Assembly: GCA_030054295.1 (NCBI GenBank)
Contig: JASGCE010000006.1
Location: forward strand, 1 to 37,271
Direction of reading: 5' to 3'
From: Minisyncoccota bacterium
GTDB lineage: Bacteria > Pseudomonadota > Alphaproteobacteria > Elsterales > Elsteraceae
DNA length: 37,271 nt
This document shows positions 5,328 to 35,476 of this stretch, piece by piece. A model generated the notes under the pieces. It saw only the letters and a program-made list of their open reading frames with translations, ran no database searches and was not told the origin of the DNA. Position 1 is the first letter of the stretch, and the number at the start of each line of letters is the position of its first letter. The position numbers were made by a program, and so were the translations under genes.

Positions 5328-5438
5328 GGCGGTTCCAGGGGTATGGTTCTTCAGAGGAAAATTCAAGTCTATAGGGAATAGGGATGATTGACCATGGTTA
5401 ACTCTTAATGAAGGTCTGAAAAACACTAATTCATTTTA

Positions 5439-5617
5439 GCAACCCCCCTTAGTCTCACTAAGCAGCAAGCTGCTAAGTGAGACTATTCCCCCCTTCTGAA
5501 GAAGGGGGGATAAAGAGTAACGATTTCAATCTATTATACCTCCCCTTCTTTAGAAGGGGAGGATAGAAAACCTTAGCGAAGCCGAAGGCGAGCGTTAGGT
5601 TTTCTTGGTGGGGTTGC
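5439..5617. repeat. Stacked-palindrome intergenic repeat (copy 1)
   Basis: The gap between rnr and the MFS gene is almost filled by nested hairpins. The outer arms are GCAACCCC (5439-5446) and GGGGTTGC (5610-5617). Inside lie a 34-nt near-perfect palindrome at 5451-5484 (AGTCTCACT / AGTGAGACT), a perfect 9-bp stem with a TGAA loop at 5488-5509 (CCCCCCTTC / GAAGGGGGG), a perfect 11-bp stem at 5539-5562 (CCTCCCCTTCT / AGAAGGGGAGG) and an imperfect palindrome at 5566-5604 (GAAAACCT / AGGTTTTC). A block with the same style of hairpins occurs at the right end of the window. It probably also acts as a terminator for rnr on the minus strand, but that is inference. There is no coding potential. Confidence 0.8.
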
Positions 5618-5632
5618 ATAAAAAAAATTTCC

Positions 5633-7708
5633 CTAGTTTTTGAGACCTTCCTTTACAAACTGCACAAAGCTAAATTTTAACCTGCCGGTGACAATATCAA
5701 CCTCGTCGAGGCGCAGCAGCAAGCGATCCCCGAGGCGGAAGATTTTTTTACTCTTGTCGCCGACCAACCTTTGGGTTTTTGGGTCATGTTTGTAATAGTC
5801 GCTTGGCAGGGCACTCATCGGCACCAGACCATCGGCCCCGGTTTCGTCCAGAGTCACAAAGAGTCCGAACTTGGTGACGCTGCTCACTCGCGCGGTAAAT
5901 TCCGCCCCCTCCAGGGTCGCCATAAAGGCTGCCAGCAAGCGATCCTTGACCCCCCGTTCGGCATTGACGGCACGGCGTTCCATCCCCGAAATATGCTGTG
6001 CTATCGCGGCATGGTTACCAACCCTCTCCCCCCCTTGACCCGACAGGCTGGGATGGTCTTCAATCTTCAGGGCCTGTTTTAAAAACCGATGAACCATCAA
6101 ATCGGCATAGCGACGAATGGGGGAGGTAAAATGGGCATAACGGCGCAGGGACAGGCCAAAATGGCCAATATTATCGGGCGAATAGACCGCGAGGGCGAGG
6201 CTGCGCAAAATCAGACCATGAATCAAATCATGCTCGGGCTTGCCGGCGGATTTTTGCAAAATCCGCACCAGCAATTCGGGTCGCAGCACCTGTCCCTTGG
6301 CGAGTTTATAGCCAAAAGCCGCCAGAGACTGCGACAGGGCCAGGAACTTCTCCGGGCTCGGGCTATCGTGAATGCGATAGATACAGGGGCTCAGCCTCTG
6401 TTCCAAAACCTCGGCGGCGGCGACATTGGCGAGAATCATCAACTCCTCGATCAGCCGATGGGCATTCAATCTTTGTCGGTTGGCAATGGCCACCACCGCT
6501 TGACCGGTTGGGTCGAGAATCACCTCCCGCTCGGGCAGTTCGAGATCCAGGGCATGGCGCAGTTCGCGGGCGGCCAATAGAATCTTAAAGGCGGCCTCGA
6601 GCGGGCTAACCAAGTCCTTGATTTGCGGTTCTTGCCCCCCTGCCCCCTCCCCATCCATAACCCCCTGCACCTGTTCATAGGTCAGGCGAGCGCGGGAATT
6701 GATGACCCCCGATTTAAACTCCCGCGAGATCAATTGTCCTTCGGCATTAATCCGCATCACCGCCACCATCACAGCCCGATCCTGATGCGGCAGCAGGGAA
6801 CAGGCCCCGTTAGACAGGGCCTCCGGCAACATCGGGATCACCCGATCGGGCAGATAGACCGAATTGCCGCGCTCCCGCGCCTCGAGGTCGAGCGGCGACT
6901 CGGCAGTGACAAAAAATGAGACATCGGCAATCGCTACCCACAGGCAAAATCCACCGGGATTATTTGGGTCACTATCGGCCAGAGCAACCACCGCATCGTC
7001 AAAGTCGCGGGCATCAATCCCATCAATGGTGACAAAGGGCAGGTGGCGGAAATCGGTGCGATTATTAAGATCAATCGGTTTGGCTGCCGCCTGCACTGCC
7101 GACTGTTCGATATCAAGGTTAAATTCCAAAGGAATTTCCAGCGACCGCAGCACCGCTACCGAGATCGAGGCGACCGAACCATAGGGCCCGAGTCGCTCGA
7201 CGACCTTTGCCCCTTCCTCCTCATGGTGCTGTGATAATGGCGCATAGACCACCAACTCCCCGGACTGGGCCGACATGCAATCCTCCGCCGCGACCAGCCA
7301 AACCATCTGGGTTGATTTCTCGAGCGCGCGAATCTTGCCCCCCAGCGGAGTCTTGTCGAATATGCCGATTGAATTGGCGGCGGTCTGGGGTAGGATCCGC
7401 ATAATCTCGAACTCATGGCGCGATTTTTGATTAACAAAAACCCGATCCCCAATCGAGACCGCAGCATTGTTTTTGGGCGAAGGGCCAGCCGTCGGAGAAA
7501 TCTCGATAAATTCCGGCAGGCGCGAAAGGGATTTTTTGGCCCCGCTTAAAATCTGCGCCTGAATATAGCCATCATGGTTAATCGACAGAATCTGGGCGAC
7601 GAGGAACCGCGATTGCGACTCGCGACTGTCCAACCGATGATGGTTCCTTGGCCCATTTCTTCGACTGTCGGGCTGCCGATGCGAAGCCGAGCGATTCTTA
7701 CCCTTCAT
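5633..7708 (-). CDS. rnr: Ribonuclease R (RNB-family 3'-5' exoribonuclease)
   Basis: RNase R is a processive cytoplasmic 3'-5' exoribonuclease that degrades structured RNA. The RNB catalytic centre is intact: Asp229, Asp235, Asp237 and Asp238 in the motif that reads IDGIDARDFDDAV. It is followed by VYLPDRVIPMLPEALSNG and, nearer the C-terminus, FTSPIRRYADLMVHR. A C-terminal S1 RNA-binding domain (GAEFTARVSSVTKFGLFV onward, roughly residues 590-680) is present. The protein is 691 residues, shorter than the usual 750-800. The N-terminus is a polar basic tail (HRQPDSRRNGPRNHH), and I do not see the winged-helix domain that normally comes first. It begins 18 nt downstream of gatB, so it is probably cotranscribed with gatCAB. 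In relatives rnr often follows topA. Confidence 0.95.
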   Translation of the reverse strand: MKGKNRSASHRQPDSRRNGPRNHHRLDSRESQSRFLVAQILSINHDGYIQAQILSGAKKSLSRLPEFIEISPTAGPSPKNNAAVSIGDRVFVNQKSRHEFEIMRILPQTAANSIGIFDKTPLGGKIRALEKSTQMVWLVAAEDCMSAQSGELVVYAPLSQHHEEEGAKVVERLGPYGSVASISVAVLRSLEIPLEFNLDIEQSAVQAAAKPIDLNNRTDFRHLPFVTIDGIDARDFDDAVVALADSDPNNPGGFCLWVAIADVSFFVTAESPLDLEARERGNSVYLPDRVIPMLPEALSNGACSLLPHQDRAVMVAVMRINAEGQLISREFKSGVINSRARLTYEQVQGVMDGEGAGGQEPQIKDLVSPLEAAFKILLAARELRHALDLELPEREVILDPTGQAVVAIANRQRLNAHRLIEELMILANVAAAEVLEQRLSPCIYRIHDSPSPEKFLALSQSLAAFGYKLAKGQVLRPELLVRILQKSAGKPEHDLIHGLILRSLALAVYSPDNIGHFGLSLRRYAHFTSPIRRYADLMVHRFLKQALKIEDHPSLSGQGGERVGNHAAIAQHISGMERRAVNAERGVKDRLLAAFMATLEGAEFTARVSSVTKFGLFVTLDETGADGLVPMSALPSDYYKHDPKTQRLVGDKSKKIFRLGDRLLLRLDEVDIVTGRLKFSFVQFVKEGLKN

Positions 7709-11600: not shown

Positions 11601-11911
11601 TATACTCCGTTCACTTGAGAATAGAAAATTTTGTTTAGGTTTTAAAAACTATCCATTTTCGTCATTGCGAGGGAGTGCCCCGTCGGCGTAGGCCGACATT
11701 CGTCGGCGGGTGCAGCAAGCCCGCGAAGCGGTCAGATTTCTTTTTACATTAACTAATTGATTTTATAGATTATTTTGACCGCTACGCGGGTTCATTGCCA
11801 CGGCCTCCTCGCTTATGCGCCTTGCACGCGCGGCGATTTGCCTCGCAATGACGAATATGGATAGTTATTGAAATCAAAACGAAATTTTGAATTCTCAAGG
11901 CAACATCGTAT
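11601..11911. mobile_element. MITE-like palindromic element, copy A
   Basis: This is a non-coding element of about 310 bp directly after ruvX. The left arm begins TATACTCCGTTCACTTGAGA and runs to CGTCATTGCGAG (11660-11671). The right arm starts at CTCGCAATGACG (11842-11853) and ends near GCAACATCGTATG. Reverse-complementing the right arm gives the left arm with few mismatches over about 60 bp. A second inner inverted pair is CCCGCGAAGCGGTCA / TGACCGCTACGCGGG. Reverse-complemented, copy B at 16875-17178 matches this element through most of its length, including the unpaired centre. There is no ORF, so it would need a transposase supplied elsewhere. I did not find a clear target-site duplication. 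Confidence 0.75.
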
Positions 11912-13734: not shown

Positions 13735-15027
13735 ATGACACAAAAACCGCAATCCAGATTAATCCGTGGTGCAAGGCTGGTCGATTCCATTCAGACCAGC
13801 GACTCCCCCCAAGACCTACTGATTATCGATGGCAAGATTGCCGAGATCGGGGAGACTATCTCTGCCCCACCGCAGACCGAAACCATCGATGCGGCGGGAT
13901 TATATATTGCCCCCGGCCTCATCGACATCAGGGTTCAAACCCGCGAGCCGGGTGGCGAGCATGAGGAGACTCTGGAATCGGCGGTCGAATCGGCGGTGGC
14001 GGGTGGCATTACCCAGCTGATCTGTCTGCCCAATACCGACCCGCCGCTCGATGAGCCAGCCTTGATTGCCTGGATTCGCCAGCGCGGTCAATCCCTCGGC
14101 AAGACCCGAATTCACGCCTATGGCAGTCTGACCAAAGGTCGTCGCGGCGAGCAGCTGGCCGAGATGGGTCTGTTGCAAGAATCGGGTGCCATTGGCTTTA
14201 CCGATTCGCCGCAAGCGATTGGTTCAGCGCGGTTGATGGTTCAGGCCCTTAAATATGCGCGGGGATTTAACAGTCTGGTTCTCAGCCACCCTGAGGAGCC
14301 AAGCCTGGCCAGCGGTATGATGAATGAAGGGGAACTGGCGACCCGTTTAGGTCTGGCCGGTCGCTCATCTCTCGCCGAGACCCTGCTGGTGGAGCGCGAC
14401 TGCCTTATCAGCGAAGCCACCGGCAGTCGGCTCCATATTGGGCCCGTAACCTCGGCTGCGGCGATTGATGCCATTCGCCGCGCCAAAGCCCGCGGGGCTC
14501 GGGTGTCCTGCGACACGGCAGCCCATTACTTTACCCTGACCGAAATGGCGGTGGGCAATTGGCGCAGCTTTGCCAAGGTCGCTCCCCCATTGCGGTCGGA
14601 ATCTGACCGTCTGGCGGTGATTGCGGGATTAAAGGATGGCACCATCGATGCCGTCAGTTCTGACCATTCACCGCGAGCCCCCGACAGTAAAAGACTCCCC
14701 TTTGCTCAGGCGTCATTTGGCATGGTTGGACTCGAGACTCTGTTTCCTCTCACCCTTGATCTGTTTCATCATCATGGCTTTACCCTGGCTCAGGCACTAT
14801 CCTTGGTGACTGCAAAACCAGCGGCAATTGTTGATATCAAGGGTGGAACAATAGACAAGGGGGAACCAGCCGATTTAATCATTTTTGATCCGAACCAAGA
14901 CTGGAAAATCGACCCGGAACAGTTTAAATCCCGTTCCAAAAACAGCCCGTTGCTGGAATATCCGGTAAAGGGTAGAATTCACCAGACCCTGATCGCGGGT
15001 AGGGTTGTTTATCAGCACCAACCATAA
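13735..15027 (+). CDS. Dihydroorotase-like protein lacking zinc ligands (probable non-catalytic partner of PyrB)
   Basis: This is a class I dihydroorotase homologue of 430 residues with the usual amidohydrolase barrel. The core motifs are GLYIAPGLIDIRVQTREPG, CLPNTDPPLD, MNEGELATRLGL and SSDHSPRAPDSKRLPF. The metal-binding signature Asp-x-His-x-His is replaced by Asp64-Ile-Arg66-Val-Gln68. The position usually occupied by the His of HVS reads GPVTS (Pro237). Asp157, His185, His264 and Asp310 are retained. Enzymes with this pattern (PyrC' of Pseudomonas, and the pyrB-linked copies in Alphaproteobacteria) are known as structural, non-catalytic subunits that support PyrB. A catalytically competent dihydroorotase would then have to be encoded elsewhere. 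The gene lies 1 nt after pyrB. Databases often label such proteins pyrC. Confidence 0.9.
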   Translation: MTQKPQSRLIRGARLVDSIQTSDSPQDLLIIDGKIAEIGETISAPPQTETIDAAGLYIAPGLIDIRVQTREPGGEHEETLESAVESAVAGGITQLICLPNTDPPLDEPALIAWIRQRGQSLGKTRIHAYGSLTKGRRGEQLAEMGLLQESGAIGFTDSPQAIGSARLMVQALKYARGFNSLVLSHPEEPSLASGMMNEGELATRLGLAGRSSLAETLLVERDCLISEATGSRLHIGPVTSAAAIDAIRRAKARGARVSCDTAAHYFTLTEMAVGNWRSFAKVAPPLRSESDRLAVIAGLKDGTIDAVSSDHSPRAPDSKRLPFAQASFGMVGLETLFPLTLDLFHHHGFTLAQALSLVTAKPAAIVDIKGGTIDKGEPADLIIFDPNQDWKIDPEQFKSRSKNSPLLEYPVKGRIHQTLIAGRVVYQHQP

Positions 15028-15046
15028 TCACAACCAAGGATAGACC

Positions 15047-15658
15047 ATGACCGAAGTTACGATTCCCATGCAGATTGTTTTTATAGTCCTCGCCTATCTA
15101 TTGGGCTCCATTCCTTTCGGCTTGATTTTGACGCGGCTGGCGGGGCTTGGCGATATTCGCCAGATTGGCTCGGGCAATATTGGCGCGACCAATGTGCTGC
15201 GCACCGGTAATCGCGGCCTGGCAGCCCTGACCCTGATATTGGATGCGGTCAAGGGGGCGGCGGCGATTTTGCTGGTTCGGCTGATCTATCCCAATGCCGA
15301 TCCGACCCTGGCCTATGCGGTCGCCATGGCGGTGATTATCGGGCATATTTTTCCGCTTTGGCTGGGCTTCAAGGGTGGTAAGGGGGTTGCGACAGTGTTG
15401 GGGATTTGGCTCGCCCTGTGCTGGCCGATTGGGGTCATTGGCGCCTTGGTTTGGGTCTTGATGCTGCTGGCCTTCCGTTATTCTTCGCTCTCGGCATTGG
15501 TGGCGGTGATTATATCGGTTCCGCTGGCCTGGGTTTTTGACCTTGGCTTTGCCGGAGTCTATCTGGCCCTGATCTTGACGGCCTTAATCTGGTGGCGGCA
15601 CCGTGACAATATTGTTCGATTGCTCAAGGGAACTGAATCCAGGGTCGGCAAGAAATGA
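15047..15658 (+). CDS. plsY: Acyl-phosphate:glycerol-3-phosphate acyltransferase
   Basis: PlsY is an inner-membrane enzyme that transfers the acyl group from acyl-phosphate to glycerol-3-phosphate, making lysophosphatidic acid, the first step of phospholipid synthesis. Three conserved loops are present: LGSIPFG with the DIRQIGSGNIGATN stretch (about residues 22-46), GHIFPLWLGFKGGKGVAT (about 101-118) and a C-terminal loop before the final helix (WRHRDNI). There are about five hydrophobic helices. The ATG at 15047 has AAGGA about 7 nt upstream. A second in-frame ATG (residue 8) is possible. The gene overlaps dprA by four bases (ATGA), so translation is likely coupled. Confidence 0.97.
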   Translation: MTEVTIPMQIVFIVLAYLLGSIPFGLILTRLAGLGDIRQIGSGNIGATNVLRTGNRGLAALTLILDAVKGAAAILLVRLIYPNADPTLAYAVAMAVIIGHIFPLWLGFKGGKGVATVLGIWLALCWPIGVIGALVWVLMLLAFRYSSLSALVAVIISVPLAWVFDLGFAGVYLALILTALIWWRHRDNIVRLLKGTESRVGKK

Positions 15659-16830
15659 ATGCAAAGGCCGCGCTCAAACCCTTGACCGATGAGGAAAGGT
15701 TGGATTGGCTCCAGCTTTACCGTAGCGAAAATGTCGGCCCCATTACCTTTAACCAGCTTTTGGATCGCTTTGGTTCAGCGCGGGCGGCCTTACGGTCGCT
15801 TCCAGACCTTGGCAAAAAAGGCGGGCGGGTTTTAAAGATTGCCAGCCGCGACGATGTTACCCGCGAACTGGAGCGAAGTTACAAATTCGGCGCCAAGATC
15901 ATTGCCAGCTGCGAGCCAAACTATCCGCAGCTGCTGGCTGAACTCGAGGATGCTCCCCCCATCATCATCGTCAAGGGTTTTGAACATCTGCTCACCCGCC
16001 CCGAACTGAACCGCGCGATTGGCGTGGTTGGGGCACGCAATGCCTCGATTAACGGCTTGAATATGGCGGAGGCTATTGCCTTTGACCTCGCCAGTGCTGG
16101 TTGGATTATTGCCTCTGGTCTGGCCCGCGGCATTGATGCCGCTGCCCATCGGGGGGCCTTGCGGGCGGGTTCGGGTGGCACCATCGCCTTTATCGCCGGT
16201 GGCATTGATACTATCTATCCGCCCGAGAACGAGAGTCTGTACGAGGAGATTAGCGACCGTGGGCTGTTGGTCACCGAAGTGCCCTTTGGCGTCCAACCCA
16301 TCGCCCGCCATTTTCCGCGGCGCAATCGGTTAATATCAGGCCTGTCATTGGGGCTGTTGGTGGTGGAGGCTACCGTCAATTCCGGCTCTCTGATTACCGC
16401 GCGGTTGGCGGCGGAACAGGGGCGCGAGGTTTTTGCCATCCCCGGCTCCCCCCTCGACCCGCGCTGTCGCGGCAGTAACAGTTTGCTGCGGGATGGGGCC
16501 ATATTGACCGAATCGGCGGGGGATATTCTCGAGGCCTTTGAACAGAGGGAACTCCCCTATCGCAACAGCAAAACCGGTCTGAGTGATGTTCGGCTGACAA
16601 GGGCTCCGAATAGATCGGTCAAGTCATCTGCCCAGGTTACGACCGAGGCCGAGATTGAACTGGCCCGCAGCAGAATTCCCGAACTGCTGAGTGCAACCCC
16701 GACCGAGATTGATCGCTTGATCGAGGTTGCCAATATCGGTCGCGGTGCCGTCCAGATGGTTCTGCTGGAATTGGAACTGGCGGGGAAAGTGCAAAGACAG
16801 ATTGGTAACTCGGTTTCCCTTACCTTCTAA
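15655..16830 (+). CDS. dprA: DNA-processing protein DprA (DNA uptake recombination mediator)
   Basis: DprA binds incoming single-stranded DNA and loads RecA during natural transformation, and it is widespread even in bacteria not known to be competent. The Rossmann-like core is clear: VVGARNASINGL, ASGLARGIDAAAHRGAL, FIAGGIDTIYPPEN, FPRRNRLISGLS, VVEATVNSGSLITA and FAIPGSPLDPRCRGSN. The N-terminus (residues 10-60) has the helical SAM-like region, including ERLDWLQLYRSENVGP. The C-terminus (about 330-391) forms the winged-helix domain (SATPTEIDRLIEVANIGRGAVQMVLLELELAGKV). The length of 391 residues is typical. It is the last gene before MITE-like copy B, which separates it from topA. Confidence 0.97.
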   Translation: MNAKAALKPLTDEERLDWLQLYRSENVGPITFNQLLDRFGSARAALRSLPDLGKKGGRVLKIASRDDVTRELERSYKFGAKIIASCEPNYPQLLAELEDAPPIIIVKGFEHLLTRPELNRAIGVVGARNASINGLNMAEAIAFDLASAGWIIASGLARGIDAAAHRGALRAGSGGTIAFIAGGIDTIYPPENESLYEEISDRGLLVTEVPFGVQPIARHFPRRNRLISGLSLGLLVVEATVNSGSLITARLAAEQGREVFAIPGSPLDPRCRGSNSLLRDGAILTESAGDILEAFEQRELPYRNSKTGLSDVRLTRAPNRSVKSSAQVTTEAEIELARSRIPELLSATPTEIDRLIEVANIGRGAVQMVLLELELAGKVQRQIGNSVSLTF

Positions 16831-16874
16831 ACCCAAACCACAGAAATTCTTCACTAAGCTTTAGGTTTTTGGTA

Positions 16875-17178
16875 CTATAGTCTGTTCATTTGTGAATTCA
16901 AAACTTTGTTCAGATTTCAATAACTCTCCACATTCGTCATTGCGAGGCAAATCGCCGCGCGTGCAACGCGCATATGCGATTTGGCCGTGGCAATGAACCC
17001 GCGTAGCGGTCAAAATAATCTTTTAAAATCAAATAGTTATTTTCTTTAAAAATTCTGACCGCTTCGCGGGCTTGCTGCCACGCCTTCGGCGGTTGTGCGA
17101 GCTTCGCTCGCGCCGCCGAGGCTCGCAGTGACGATTATTAGGTTGAAACTTCTAGAATTCTTAAAGAAACTCAGTATA
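16875..17178. mobile_element. MITE-like palindromic element, copy B (inverted relative to copy A)
   Basis: This is a second ~304 bp non-coding element, between dprA and topA. The left arm starts CTATAGTCTGTTCATTTGTG and reaches CGTCATTGCGAG at 16935-16946. The right arm starts at CTCGCAGTGACG (17122-17133) and ends near AGTATA (17173-17178). Its reverse complement follows copy A almost base for base through the centre: GCAAGCCCGCGAAGCGGTCA, an AT-rich middle, then ATTTTGACCGCTACGCGGGT. The right arm is more diverged than the left. The arms could form a long hairpin in RNA, so it may attenuate read-through from dprA. The gap contains no gene. Confidence 0.75.
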
Positions 17179-29815: not shown

Positions 29816-30910
29816 TTAAATCGATTTCAATAGCTGGACAAGAAAAGCGACATTTTCAACGGGACTGTTGGGCAGGATTCCATGTCCCAGGTTGAAAATA
29901 TAGCGACTATTATTTTTCGAGTCGAGTCGTACGGACTCGATCATTCTTCGGGTTGCCGCCTCGATGGTTTTCGGGTCGGTTAAGAGATAGATTGGATCCA
30001 AATAACCCTGAATCACATAGTGTTTCTGCAACTGCCGCGCCGTGTTCTGAGTCACTGTTGAATCCAAACCAATGGCTTGAATATTCAAGATTTTACCCGA
30101 TTGGATCAGGGTTTCGCTGGCATTTTTTGGAAACCAAATAATCGGTATCTCGGGGTGACTAGCCCTTAATCTGTTAACCAAGATTTCGGTGGGGTCAAGA
30201 ATAAACTTGTTAAAATGAAACTCATCCATCTGCCCAGCCCAGGATTCAAAAATCTGAATCACTTGACAGCCCGCTTCGATTTGCCCGACCAGATAATGGT
30301 AACTGGCCTCGATTAAAATCGCAAAGAGTCGATTTATGAATTCCGAATTCTGGTAACAGTGCTGTTTGATAGTTTCGTAATTTTTCGAAGATTGCCCCTC
30401 GATCATGTACGAAGCTACGGTCCAAATTCCGCCGCAGAATCCAATCATGGTCTTATTGGCGGGCAGGCCTTGGCAGGTCAGTTTTACGGTTTGGTAAATC
30501 GGGTCAAAACCATGGGCAACAGATTCAAGATTCAAAATTTTAAGATCTTCGAGGCTGCGCAGCGGTTTCAATCTGGGGCCAATCGATTCGATAAACTCGA
30601 CCCTTTGCCCCAAGACATGGGGAACAATCAAAATATCCGAAAATAATATCGCCCCATCCATGTCAAAGCGACGAATCGGTTGCAGGGTTATTTCGCTCGC
30701 CAAATCGGGGTTTAGGCAAAGCTGGATGAAGTTTTTTTCTTGGCTGCGAATCGCGCGATATTCGGGAAGATAGCGACCGGCCTGGCGCATAAACCAAAAG
30801 GGAATCTTATCTCCCGCAAAACCATTTAAACAGTCAAGCAAGGGTCTGTTTTGCCGAATCGGGTTTTTTAAAGACTCTTCATTTTTTTCCATCGTGCTTA
30901 TAGTTACCAT
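29816..30910 (-). CDS. hemE: Uroporphyrinogen decarboxylase
   Basis: HemE removes four carboxyl groups from uroporphyrinogen III to give coproporphyrinogen III. The N-terminal signature FWFMRQAGRYLPEYR (residues 38-52) carries the substrate-binding arginines. RRFDMDGAILFSDILIVP (80-97) contains the catalytic-site Asp. GFCGGIWTVASYMIEG, ESWAGQM and the C-terminal FNLGHGILP also match. The 364-residue length is normal. The start is uncertain between 30910 and the ATG at 30892; neither has a strong Shine-Dalgarno. It is the first gene of hemE-hemH-hemJ. Its upstream region holds the DnaA-box cluster, the arrangement known for the Caulobacter origin. Confidence 0.97.
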   Translation of the reverse strand: MVTISTMEKNEESLKNPIRQNRPLLDCLNGFAGDKIPFWFMRQAGRYLPEYRAIRSQEKNFIQLCLNPDLASEITLQPIRRFDMDGAILFSDILIVPHVLGQRVEFIESIGPRLKPLRSLEDLKILNLESVAHGFDPIYQTVKLTCQGLPANKTMIGFCGGIWTVASYMIEGQSSKNYETIKQHCYQNSEFINRLFAILIEASYHYLVGQIEAGCQVIQIFESWAGQMDEFHFNKFILDPTEILVNRLRASHPEIPIIWFPKNASETLIQSGKILNIQAIGLDSTVTQNTARQLQKHYVIQGYLDPIYLLTDPKTIEAATRRMIESVRLDSKNNSRYIFNLGHGILPNSPVENVAFLVQLLKSI

Positions 30911-31232
30911 ATAGAATTTAAATTTAAAAGATATTAGGGGATAGTAGAGTCGTGAATTATGTGGATAAGTTCTGTTAAAATTCTATCCACAGGATTATCC
31001 ACTTAAAATTGTCAAGCAAGCCATTCATTTGATAGTATAATTTGATTTATCCCGATGAGTTATTAAATCCAATTATGGTTAATCTGAATAGCTTGTTTGT
31101 GACTCCTATCCCCGCTTTTAGCAGCAAAATGGACTATTGCCAAAAAAGCGGTTTTTATCCACAGGGTGGTTTTTTTACCAAAGCAATGCTATGGATTGAA
31201 GATAATTTTCGAATCGCGGAAGGAATTCTAAC
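30911..31232. other. oriC: Putative chromosomal replication origin (oriC) next to hemE
   Basis: This 322-nt non-coding region between divergent genes carries four DnaA-box-like 9-mers. Perfect matches to TTATCCACA lie at 30960-30968 (minus strand, TGTGGATAA) and 31155-31163 (plus strand). One-mismatch boxes are at 30983-30991 (CTATCCACA) and 30995-31003 (TTATCCACT). The first two boxes form an inverted pair around an AT-rich spacer. AT-rich stretches such as AATTTAAATTTAAAAG occur on the hemE side. In Caulobacter the origin lies beside hemE and its promoter. Genes to the left (20-31 kb) are all on the minus strand and those to the right are mostly on the plus strand, as expected for replication leaving this point. 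Confidence 0.65.
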
Positions 31233-33151: not shown

Positions 33152-34738
33152 ATGACTCAAAGAATAATGCCAAGAAGGGCCCTGATTTCGGTTTCTGACA
33201 AGACCGGGGTGGTTGAATTTGCCAAGAAATTAACGACAGATTTTGGTCTCGAGATTATCTCGACCGGCGGTACGGCAAAAACTCTATTGGAGGCGGGAAT
33301 CGCGGTCTTGACGGTTGAATCTGTGACTGGCTTCCCCGAGATTCTCGAGGGGCGGGTCAAGACTCTCCATCCGATGATTCACGGGGGGATTCTCCACCGT
33401 CGCGACCAGGCCGATGACCTGGCGGCGATCCAGAACCATGGGATTGAAGCGATTGACCTGGTGGTGGTCAACCTCTATCCCTTTGTCGAGACCGTGCAGT
33501 CGGGTCAGGATTTCAACCAGGCGATTGAAAATATCGATATTGGTGGGCCCTCGATGATTCGCGCGGCGGCAAAGAACTTTCCCTTTGTGGCTGTCTTGAC
33601 CCAGACCAATCTTTATGCCGATTTCTGCCAGGCCTTGGCACAGGGGGGTTCCACCCTTGAGCAAAGGCGAGAATGGGCAATGGCGGCCTTTAACCAGTGC
33701 GGAGCCTATGATGGGATGATTGCCAGCTGGCTGCAGCAGCAGCTGAATCAGCCGCCCCCGCGCCAGTTGAGTCTGGGTTCGCCCGAGGGTACGCACCTTC
33801 GGTATGGCGAGAACCCGCATCAGTCGGCAATCTTCTACCCCAATTTTTTGGCGGCAAGGGGCGTGGGTCTGGCGCAGCAACTTCAGGGCAAGGAACTGTC
33901 CTATAATAATCTGGTCGATGGCGATGCGGCCTGGCAGTTGGTGCAGGAAATTGCTGAGCCAGCCGTCGTGATTATCAAACATGCGACCCCCTGTGGCGTG
34001 GCCATGGCAGCGGATCTGCTTCAGGCCTGGCATCTGGCCTTGGCTGCCGATCCGGTCAGTGCCTTTGGCGGCATCATTGCCTGTAATCGGCTGGTCGATG
34101 GCGATACGGCGGCAGAGATTGCGAAGATCTTTAGCGAGGTGATTATTGCCCCAGACTTTACCGAGCCAGCGCGGGAAATTTTTGCCGCCAAGAAAAATCT
34201 TCGTCTGCTGGCGGTTGGCAATCACCTCACAGCTAATCCGTCACAAAGCAATTGGCAGGTTAAATCGATTGGCGATGGTTATTTGGTGCAGTCGCAGGAC
34301 TGGGGGACGGTTCCCTGTCGCGATTGGAAAATTGTTTCACAGAAACATCCAAGTTCGGCGGAATTACGCGATCTAAACCTCGCCTGGATCATCGTCAAAC
34401 ATGCCAAGTCGAACGCGATTGTTCTCGTAAAAAATGGCATGGCGGTGGGGATCGGTTCGGGTCAGACTTCGCGGCTGGCGGCGGCGCAGCAGGCCATCGA
34501 CATGGCCGGGCAATTTGCCGAAGCGGCGGGGGAGCCATCCAGCCGCGCGATGGGGGCAGTGGTCGCTTCGGATGGATTCTTCCCCTTTGCCGATGGCTTG
34601 GAAACCTGTCTGAAGGCGGGGGTCATTGCCGCGGTCGAGCCGGGCGGGGCCTTGAAGGACGAAGAAGTCATTGCCTGCGCCAACCGCCATTCCGCGACCC
34701 TAGCCTTTACGGGCAAGCGGCATTTTCGCCATGGCTAG
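33152..34738 (+). CDS. purH: Bifunctional AICAR formyltransferase / IMP cyclohydrolase
   Basis: PurH catalyses the last two steps of IMP synthesis, using 10-formyl-THF, the product of FolD. The N-terminal MGS-like cyclohydrolase domain begins RRALISVSDKTGVVEFA and has STGGTAKTL and GRVKTLHPMIHGGIL. The transformylase domain contains LRYGENPHQSA, the catalytic KHATPCGVA (Lys-His) and ends with PGGALKDEEVIACANRH and AFTGKRHFRH, the canonical C-terminus. Alternative GTG starts at 33137 and 33140 would add up to five residues; the ATG at 33152 is closest to the family norm. It begins 20 nt after the dehydratase stop and its last 39 bases overlap a gene on the other strand. Confidence 0.97.
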   Translation: MTQRIMPRRALISVSDKTGVVEFAKKLTTDFGLEIISTGGTAKTLLEAGIAVLTVESVTGFPEILEGRVKTLHPMIHGGILHRRDQADDLAAIQNHGIEAIDLVVVNLYPFVETVQSGQDFNQAIENIDIGGPSMIRAAAKNFPFVAVLTQTNLYADFCQALAQGGSTLEQRREWAMAAFNQCGAYDGMIASWLQQQLNQPPPRQLSLGSPEGTHLRYGENPHQSAIFYPNFLAARGVGLAQQLQGKELSYNNLVDGDAAWQLVQEIAEPAVVIIKHATPCGVAMAADLLQAWHLALAADPVSAFGGIIACNRLVDGDTAAEIAKIFSEVIIAPDFTEPAREIFAAKKNLRLLAVGNHLTANPSQSNWQVKSIGDGYLVQSQDWGTVPCRDWKIVSQKHPSSAELRDLNLAWIIVKHAKSNAIVLVKNGMAVGIGSGQTSRLAAAQQAIDMAGQFAEAAGEPSSRAMGAVVASDGFFPFADGLETCLKAGVIAAVEPGGALKDEEVIACANRHSATLAFTGKRHFRHG

Positions 34739-35476
34739 GCTGGGGGAAATCGACTTGGAACTGTTGGTCAGCATATTCAGGGCGGCGAGGGATTCGCTCT
34801 TGAATCGCGCCTTTAAGGATTTCTGCACCTCGGGCGAGCAGCTTGGAAAATGCACCAATATCCCCTTGTCATTGACCCGGCCTCGCTCGGTATAGATGGC
34901 GGTAATCCAGGCCGTATCGCGACTGAGTGGGTCGCTGTTCTGCACCTCGATTGGCAGATTCATCCAGCAGCTCATGGGCAGGGTCGAACGACCGCCATGC
35001 TGCACCGCGCAGGACCAGATGACATTTTGAAGGGCGAAGGAACAGTCGTTAAGATCAATGGCGCAGCGATTCAGAATTGATTTCACCATCGGCAGATAGT
35101 GATTATCGCGAATAAACTGATGTTGAGCCCTTTCGAACCGTGCGTCCTTTTCGGCAATCTCCCTCCAGACCGCGGCAAATTCGGGACTGCCAATCGGATA
35201 GGCCTTCAGGCGACTGGCCCAGGGAAAATTCGGCTGAGAAATAAATTTAATCACCGTCCCGCCATTGGGCTGGCTTGACATTTGATAGAGACCATAGGAG
35301 ATTCCCCCACGGTCGCCGACCCCTGATGAAACCGTGCCAGCGCCAGATTTACCCGATTCATATTTTGCCGACAGGGTGCCCAGAAAATTCGCAATTTGTT
35401 TTTCAGCTTGTTTTTCAGCCTCCAGTTCAACCGATTGTTTTAATTTTGGCGAAGCCTGTAGATTTGATTTCATCAT
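34700..35476 (-). CDS. Orphan lysozyme-like / phage-tail-associated protein
   Basis: This 258-residue protein has no signal peptide. The recognisable segment is KYESGKSGAGTVSSGVGD followed by RGGISYGLYQMSS (residues 38-68). This pattern, a Glu in an ESG turn followed by a glycine-rich GGxSYGxYQ strand, is seen in lysozyme-fold peptidoglycan hydrolases of phage structural proteins and related polypeptides. Glu40 would be the candidate catalytic residue. Further on are AAVWREIAEKDARFERAQHQFIRDNHY and a C-terminal part with SCAVQHGG. The N-terminus is a charged helix (ELEAEKQAEKQ). It stands alone: no other phage or secretion gene is visible. The 3' end overlaps purH antiparallel by 39 nt. The assignment rests on motif memory only. 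Confidence 0.5.
   Translation of the reverse strand: MMKSNLQASPKLKQSVELEAEKQAEKQIANFLGTLSAKYESGKSGAGTVSSGVGDRGGISYGLYQMSSQPNGGTVIKFISQPNFPWASRLKAYPIGSPEFAAVWREIAEKDARFERAQHQFIRDNHYLPMVKSILNRCAIDLNDCSFALQNVIWSCAVQHGGRSTLPMSCWMNLPIEVQNSDPLSRDTAWITAIYTERGRVNDKGILVHFPSCSPEVQKSLKARFKSESLAALNMLTNSSKSISPSLAMAKMPLARKG

Follow-up and report, generated by a model that had tools for sequence, protein, structure and literature searches.

A predicted hemE-linked chromosomal origin with a rearranged flank in an alphaproteobacterial draft genome

The Caulobacter crescentus chromosomal origin, Cori, is flanked by hemE and COG1806, whereas in Wolbachia these two genes are separated and the origin, with hemE and COG1253 as its flanks, has been assigned to the hemE side (PMC1914354). 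The locus described here resembles Cori and the other alphaproteobacterial origins of the hemE/COG1806 type in being a divergent gap of 300-400 bp next to hemE (PMC1914354), and it shares with the Cori group several DnaA boxes, a high AT content and weak elements of the TCCCC type, the W-box consensus being TCCCCA (PMC4285127). Unlike in Caulobacter, a CapD-like gene replaces COG1806, perfect E. coli-type boxes are found instead of the TGATCCACA G-boxes, and the hemE gap has no CtrA site of the form TTAA-N7-TTAA. The likeness to the Wolbachia origin consists in a hemE flank that was kept after COG1806 had been rearranged away and in three to four DnaA boxes; the replacement gene differs, and most Wolbachia strains have kept CtrA and IHF sites. 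A further system to be compared is the basal unwinding system, in which a strong box, a weak tandem box, DnaA-trios and AT-rich DNA follow each other in this order (PMC8287927).

The hemE gap and its DnaA boxes

The window, that is, the whole 37-kb stretch of DNA that was analysed, is the entire contig C250 of a 2.72-Mb draft genome (355 contigs, 95.5% complete, 3.2% contamination), whose host is alphaproteobacterial according to its relatives and its gene order. A preliminary description had proposed a candidate origin linked to hemE, a proposal that is supported by the boxes, the hemE linkage, the AT content, the conservation in a sister contig (C215, see below), the uniqueness in the draft genome, the concentration of boxes in the class, and the skew switch of relatives. 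Our prediction, with a probability of about 0.9, is that this alphaproteobacterium has its chromosomal origin (oriC) in the gap at 30911-31232. The gap, its flanks, and its boxes are as follows.

29816-30910, minus strand: hemE, uroporphyrinogen decarboxylase (TIGR01464, 363.7 bits), the conserved origin flank
30911-31232, no strand: predicted chromosomal origin (oriC), a 322-nt intergenic gap between the divergent hemE and CapD-like genes, with 4 DnaA boxes and 67% AT, syntenic and box-conserved on C215
30960-30968, minus strand: DnaA box 1, perfect TTATCCACA, reading toward hemE, identical in C215; proposed anchor of the unwinding module
30983-30991, plus strand: DnaA box 2, CTATCCACA, inverted relative to box 1; CAATCCACA in C215 with the same spacing
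30995-31003, plus strand: DnaA box 3, TTATCCACT, direct repeat of box 2; TTATCCACC in C215
31155-31163, plus strand: DnaA box 4, perfect TTATCCACA, with a conserved T-tract after the box; CTATCCACA and T-tract in C215
31233-33131, plus strand: CapD-like polysaccharide biosynthesis protein (PF02719), occupying the place of COG1806 as the other flank

Reading the sequence and scanning it for boxes returned all four boxes, two perfect and two with one mismatch, at the positions given for them in the preliminary description, which was also right that three of them lie inside 44 nt and that an inverted pair is present, boxes 1 and 2 being inverted, and boxes 1 and 3 as well. When up to one mismatch is allowed, 3000 composition shuffles of the gap contained on average 0.11 boxes and at most 2, compared with the 4 observed. 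The window holds only two other such sites, at 685 and 4127, and its total of 6 is at the chance level (mean 6.4); the non-chance part is that 4 of the 6 fall within one 322-nt gap.

Several DnaA boxes in an intergenic region, an AT content above that of the genome, and adjacency to an orthologue of hemE or COG1806 are among the marks by which such origins have been recognized, and a GC-skew shift and an IHF site also count among them (PMC1914354). The hemE gap has 4 boxes, its AT content of 67% (47% for the whole window) places it among the 7 most AT-rich of 1848 windows, and it adjoins hemE, COG1806 not being adjacent here. The start of hemE is possibly codon 7 (30892) and not codon 1, in which case the gap is longer and the argument unchanged.

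The identities proposed earlier for hemE, purH, and sdaA hold, hemE through TIGR01464 and the other two through their own models, while the supposed dehydratase to the right of the gap is the CapD-type PF02719 protein. The claimed strand switch is real in so far as hemE (minus) and the CapD-like gene (plus) diverge, but the right side is not entirely on the plus strand, as the gene at 34700-35476 (minus strand, PF21277), conserved and located between purH and sdaA, reads the other way. This gene encodes a VgrG3-like C-terminal domain, overlaps the end of purH, and is kept in C215. Because of this minus-strand gene on the right and a plus-strand gene block (11-20 kb) to the left of the gap, the strand switch alone is weak evidence. 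Inside the window, GC skew tracks gene strand, with a minimum near 27 kb and not at 31 kb, and the skew at fourfold-degenerate sites tracks transcription, with no clear replication signal.

The window gave no match to any Rfam family, and no similarity to plasmid DNA was found. Dispersed intergenic repeats of about 180-310 nt occur at 5435-5655, 11679-11911, and 16866-17178, and each recurs on many contigs of the draft; those at 11679-11911 and 16866-17178 are members of a single family and lie in opposite orientation. These repeats are a likely cause of the assembly breaks.

Conservation, uniqueness, and linkage to hemE in the class

Contig C215 (8.7 kb), from the same bin, is syntenic with positions 27.2-35.6 kb of the window at about 80% identity and carries a second copy of the rho-hemJ-hemH-hemE-origin-capD-purH region (locus L047). 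All four boxes are present there in unchanged order, orientation, and spacing, and C250 and C215 are identical at 33 of the 36 box positions, compared with 188 of 286 in the remaining gap (Fisher p = 6e-4). Beyond the boxes, two more blocks are conserved between the two contigs, an AT-rich strip beside hemE and the following element, whose GANTC site is kept in C215 despite a base change at the free position.

31097-31114, plus strand: conserved block TTGTGANTCCTATCCCCG, a TCCCC element resembling the Caulobacter W-boxes, with a GANTC site at 31101-31105

The simplest reading of C215 is that the bin includes a second, related species from which this fragment comes, but it may also be a duplicated origin region inside one genome; no comparable copy of window positions 1-20 kb was found. 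On either reading, the sequence comparison shows constraint on the boxes.

The draft genome contains 16 perfect boxes, compared with 8 occurrences of the reversed control word. An inverted pair of 7-mer box cores no more than 30 nt apart occurs, in the 2.72-Mb draft, only in the hemE gaps of C250 and C215, and a direct pair of box cores only on C250 and C142. The preliminary description had named a denser box cluster elsewhere as evidence against its proposal; in searches for paired boxes and an inspection of all perfect boxes, the only comparable array lies on the phage-like C142. Apart from C142, these searches agree with a further mark of such origins, the lack of a comparable set elsewhere (PMC1914354). 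The dnaA locus (C19, gene at 14638-16068) has no DnaA box beyond one weak site.

The array at C142:680-754 (L048) consists of the head-to-tail boxes TTATCCACA, CTATCCACA, TTATCCACA, and TTATGCACA in a GC-rich stretch. We rejected it as a rival chromosomal origin on account of the head-to-tail repeats and of phage-type Erf, exonuclease, and Holliday-junction resolvase genes; it is more plausibly a phage element, possibly serving as a phage origin or a DnaA trap. As an origin marker, parS gave no strict site in the genome; one-mismatch parS-like palindromes are found at C156:10527, C229:5295, and C313:2333, next to a HolA-like gene, mnmE, and gidA-gidB-parA, respectively, and none on C250.

Among 114 hemE loci of the class, perfect boxes number 51 upstream of hemE (~101 kb), 0 in the gene (116 kb), and 1 downstream (102 kb), and a first set of 30 hemE loci had given 19, 0, and 0. 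COG1806 lies within the hemE flank at 81 of the 114 loci, and the share of loci with at least one perfect box is about equal with COG1806 (25/81) and without it (11/33). GANTC, the site of CcrM-type methylation, is about twofold enriched in the 250 nt upstream of hemE at 113 class loci (194 vs 92 expected) and depleted in the hemE genes (186 vs 388 expected).

GC skew was followed in three closed relatives (G017, G175, and G172), sampled as twenty 20-kb pieces, and two of the three show a switch at hemE. In G017 the skew is positive from 0 to 1.52 Mb and negative between 1.71 and 3.60 Mb; hemE is located at 3.604 Mb on this 3.741-Mb chromosome. In G175 it turns from negative to positive between 1.12 and 1.285 Mb, and hemE, at 1.307 Mb and far from the record start, is at most ~0.2 Mb from the switch. 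The skew of G172 is too weak to place a switch, and no origin-like sequence precedes the best hemE match of this genome.

COG1806 itself is detached from hemE in this genome and found on C212 (L080), and on C250 as well as C215 it is the CapD-like gene that stands beside the origin gap. Of the genomes in this family, four (G001, G002, G005, and G007) keep COG1806 adjoining hemE, and in two from another genus (G004 and G006) other genes take its place. The predicted origin stayed with hemE after COG1806 moved, as has been argued for Wolbachia (PMC1914354).

A putative unwinding module and triplet arrays in relatives

On the minus strand, going from box 1 toward hemE, we observe TTATCCACA, TAATTCACG, a 3-nt spacer, CTA-CTA, TCCCC, and CTTTTAAATTTAAATTC. 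Three features of this stretch add to box 1.

30951-30959, minus strand: weak second box TAATTCACG, abutting box 1, with 3 mismatches; matches the TTCACAGG position of the class profile
30942-30947, minus strand: CTA-CTA, a pair of DnaA-trio-like triplets that read 3'-GATGAT-5' on the plus strand; 12 nt away from box 1 and conserved in C215
30911-30936, no strand: AT-rich stretch, a putative DNA unwinding element; its minus strand reads CTTTTAAATTTAAATTCTAT; nearly invariant in C215

The profile of relatives gives the class consensus TAATCCCCGTTATTCACAGG-(CNA)n-CTTTT. When built from 51 relatives with this genome left out, the profile has its best match in the 37-kb window at 30973-30916 on the minus strand (E 0.024, against 2.4 for the runner-up). 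Of the other contigs tried, C215 scores best, in its equivalent stretch (E 0.19). All of these scores are modest.

The arrangement is like the basal unwinding system in its strong box, weak tandem box, 12-nt spacer (the published peak is 10-13), 3'-GAT-5' triplets, and AT-rich DNA, and unlike it in the number of triplets, two here against a published minimum of three (PMC8287927). That system requires three or more 3'-NAN-5' trios no farther than 16 nt from a box (PMC8287927); at box 1, both direct reading and a scan with this definition gave two tandem CTA only, and box 4 qualifies solely through its T-tract, without a CTA unit. The module of the hemE gap, as judged from its layout, probably works like a basal unwinding system, but since it has fewer trios than the published minimum we do not file it as one.

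The relatives carry longer triplet arrays. In the hemE upstream regions, (CNA)3-6 arrays occur at 52 of 113 loci on the hemE strand, compared with 6 on the other strand, 4 downstream, and a shuffle mean of 6.6. They lie between a hemE-proximal TAATCCCCR/TTATCCACA box with its TTCACAGG neighbour and a CTTTT AT-rich stretch (loci L019-L178, 114 loci). The middle base of the triplets is T in 82 cases, A in 81, C in 46, and G in 2, and is thus not fixed, unlike in published DnaA-trios, where it is T on this strand and A on the other and whose authors suspected that deviant trios exist (PMC8287927). We tentatively suggest that these arrays might be a class-specific form of the DnaA-trio in alphaproteobacterial origins, (CNA)3-6 on one strand and 3'-GNT-5' on the other, with A, T, or G in the middle. 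If this is true, the rule of a conserved middle adenine fails in the class, and what DnaA recognizes in each triplet would be its outer bases. No earlier description of a CNA array was found in the literature searched, although one may exist; the array is a concrete, testable candidate for the deviant trios that had been suspected (PMC8287927).

The gap holds no strict CtrA site (TTAA-N7-TTAA) and one loose site, vs 1.45 expected by chance. Caulobacter-style CtrA control is not supported by the sequence of the hemE gap, which we do not file as a CtrA-regulated, Cori-type origin. There is one loose IHF site (WATCAN5WTR), of a kind that 24% of shuffles have by chance and that is absent from C215.

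Proposed initiation and alternative readings

We infer DnaA binding, a melting site, and origin activity at the hemE gap from its sequence, and initiation might proceed as follows. The high-affinity boxes would be loaded with DnaA, the inverted group at 30960-31003 acting as the nucleation site and box 4 and the TCCCC elements playing an accessory role. A DnaA filament that starts at box 1 and the weak box abutting it would extend toward hemE onto the triplets at 30942-30947, the AT-rich stretch at 30911-30936 would melt, and the helicase would then be loaded. Two forks would leave, one via hemE-hemH-hemJ-rho and the other via capD-purH.

The gap is a divergent promoter region in any case, and box 4 lies 70 nt from the capD start, which would suit boxes that serve, between hemE and capD, to control a divergent promoter through DnaA or to titrate DnaA while replication starts elsewhere. 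We consider this improbable, as the boxes upstream of hemE persist throughout the class although the opposite gene varies, the skew of two closed relatives switches at hemE, and the searches for paired and perfect boxes found no alternative cluster except the one on the phage-like contig. Slightly less probable again is an origin that moved with COG1806, or that sits at some other contig end outside the sampled ones and has left the hemE gap as a relic. Contig C212 does carry COG1806-maf-coaE-dnaQ followed by dnaN-recF, a gene set characteristic of origin regions, and breaks off 194 nt upstream of COG1806; nevertheless, these 194 nt contain no DnaA box, the boxes of the hemE gap are constrained between C250 and C215, and in Wolbachia, whose hemE and COG1806 have likewise come apart, the origin has been placed beside hemE as well (PMC1914354). 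The probability that box-like words merely clustered by chance in an AT-rich gap is negligible: the window total is indeed what chance would give, but the shuffled gaps never exceeded 2 boxes against the 4 seen, and the conservation in C215 refutes this explanation.

We favor the reading of the gap as a predicted oriC because the boxes, their conservation in C215, the uniqueness of the inverted pair, the class-wide linkage, and the skew of relatives agree. By its sequence, it is predicted to be an ordinary hemE-linked alphaproteobacterial oriC, whose less ordinary aspects are the CapD flank, the lack of CtrA sites, and the (CNA)3-6 arrays of its relatives. This places the predicted origin of an uncultured lineage and adds another lineage in which the origin stayed by hemE after the opposite flank was rearranged, which makes hemE a safer marker than COG1806 for origin calls in draft genomes.
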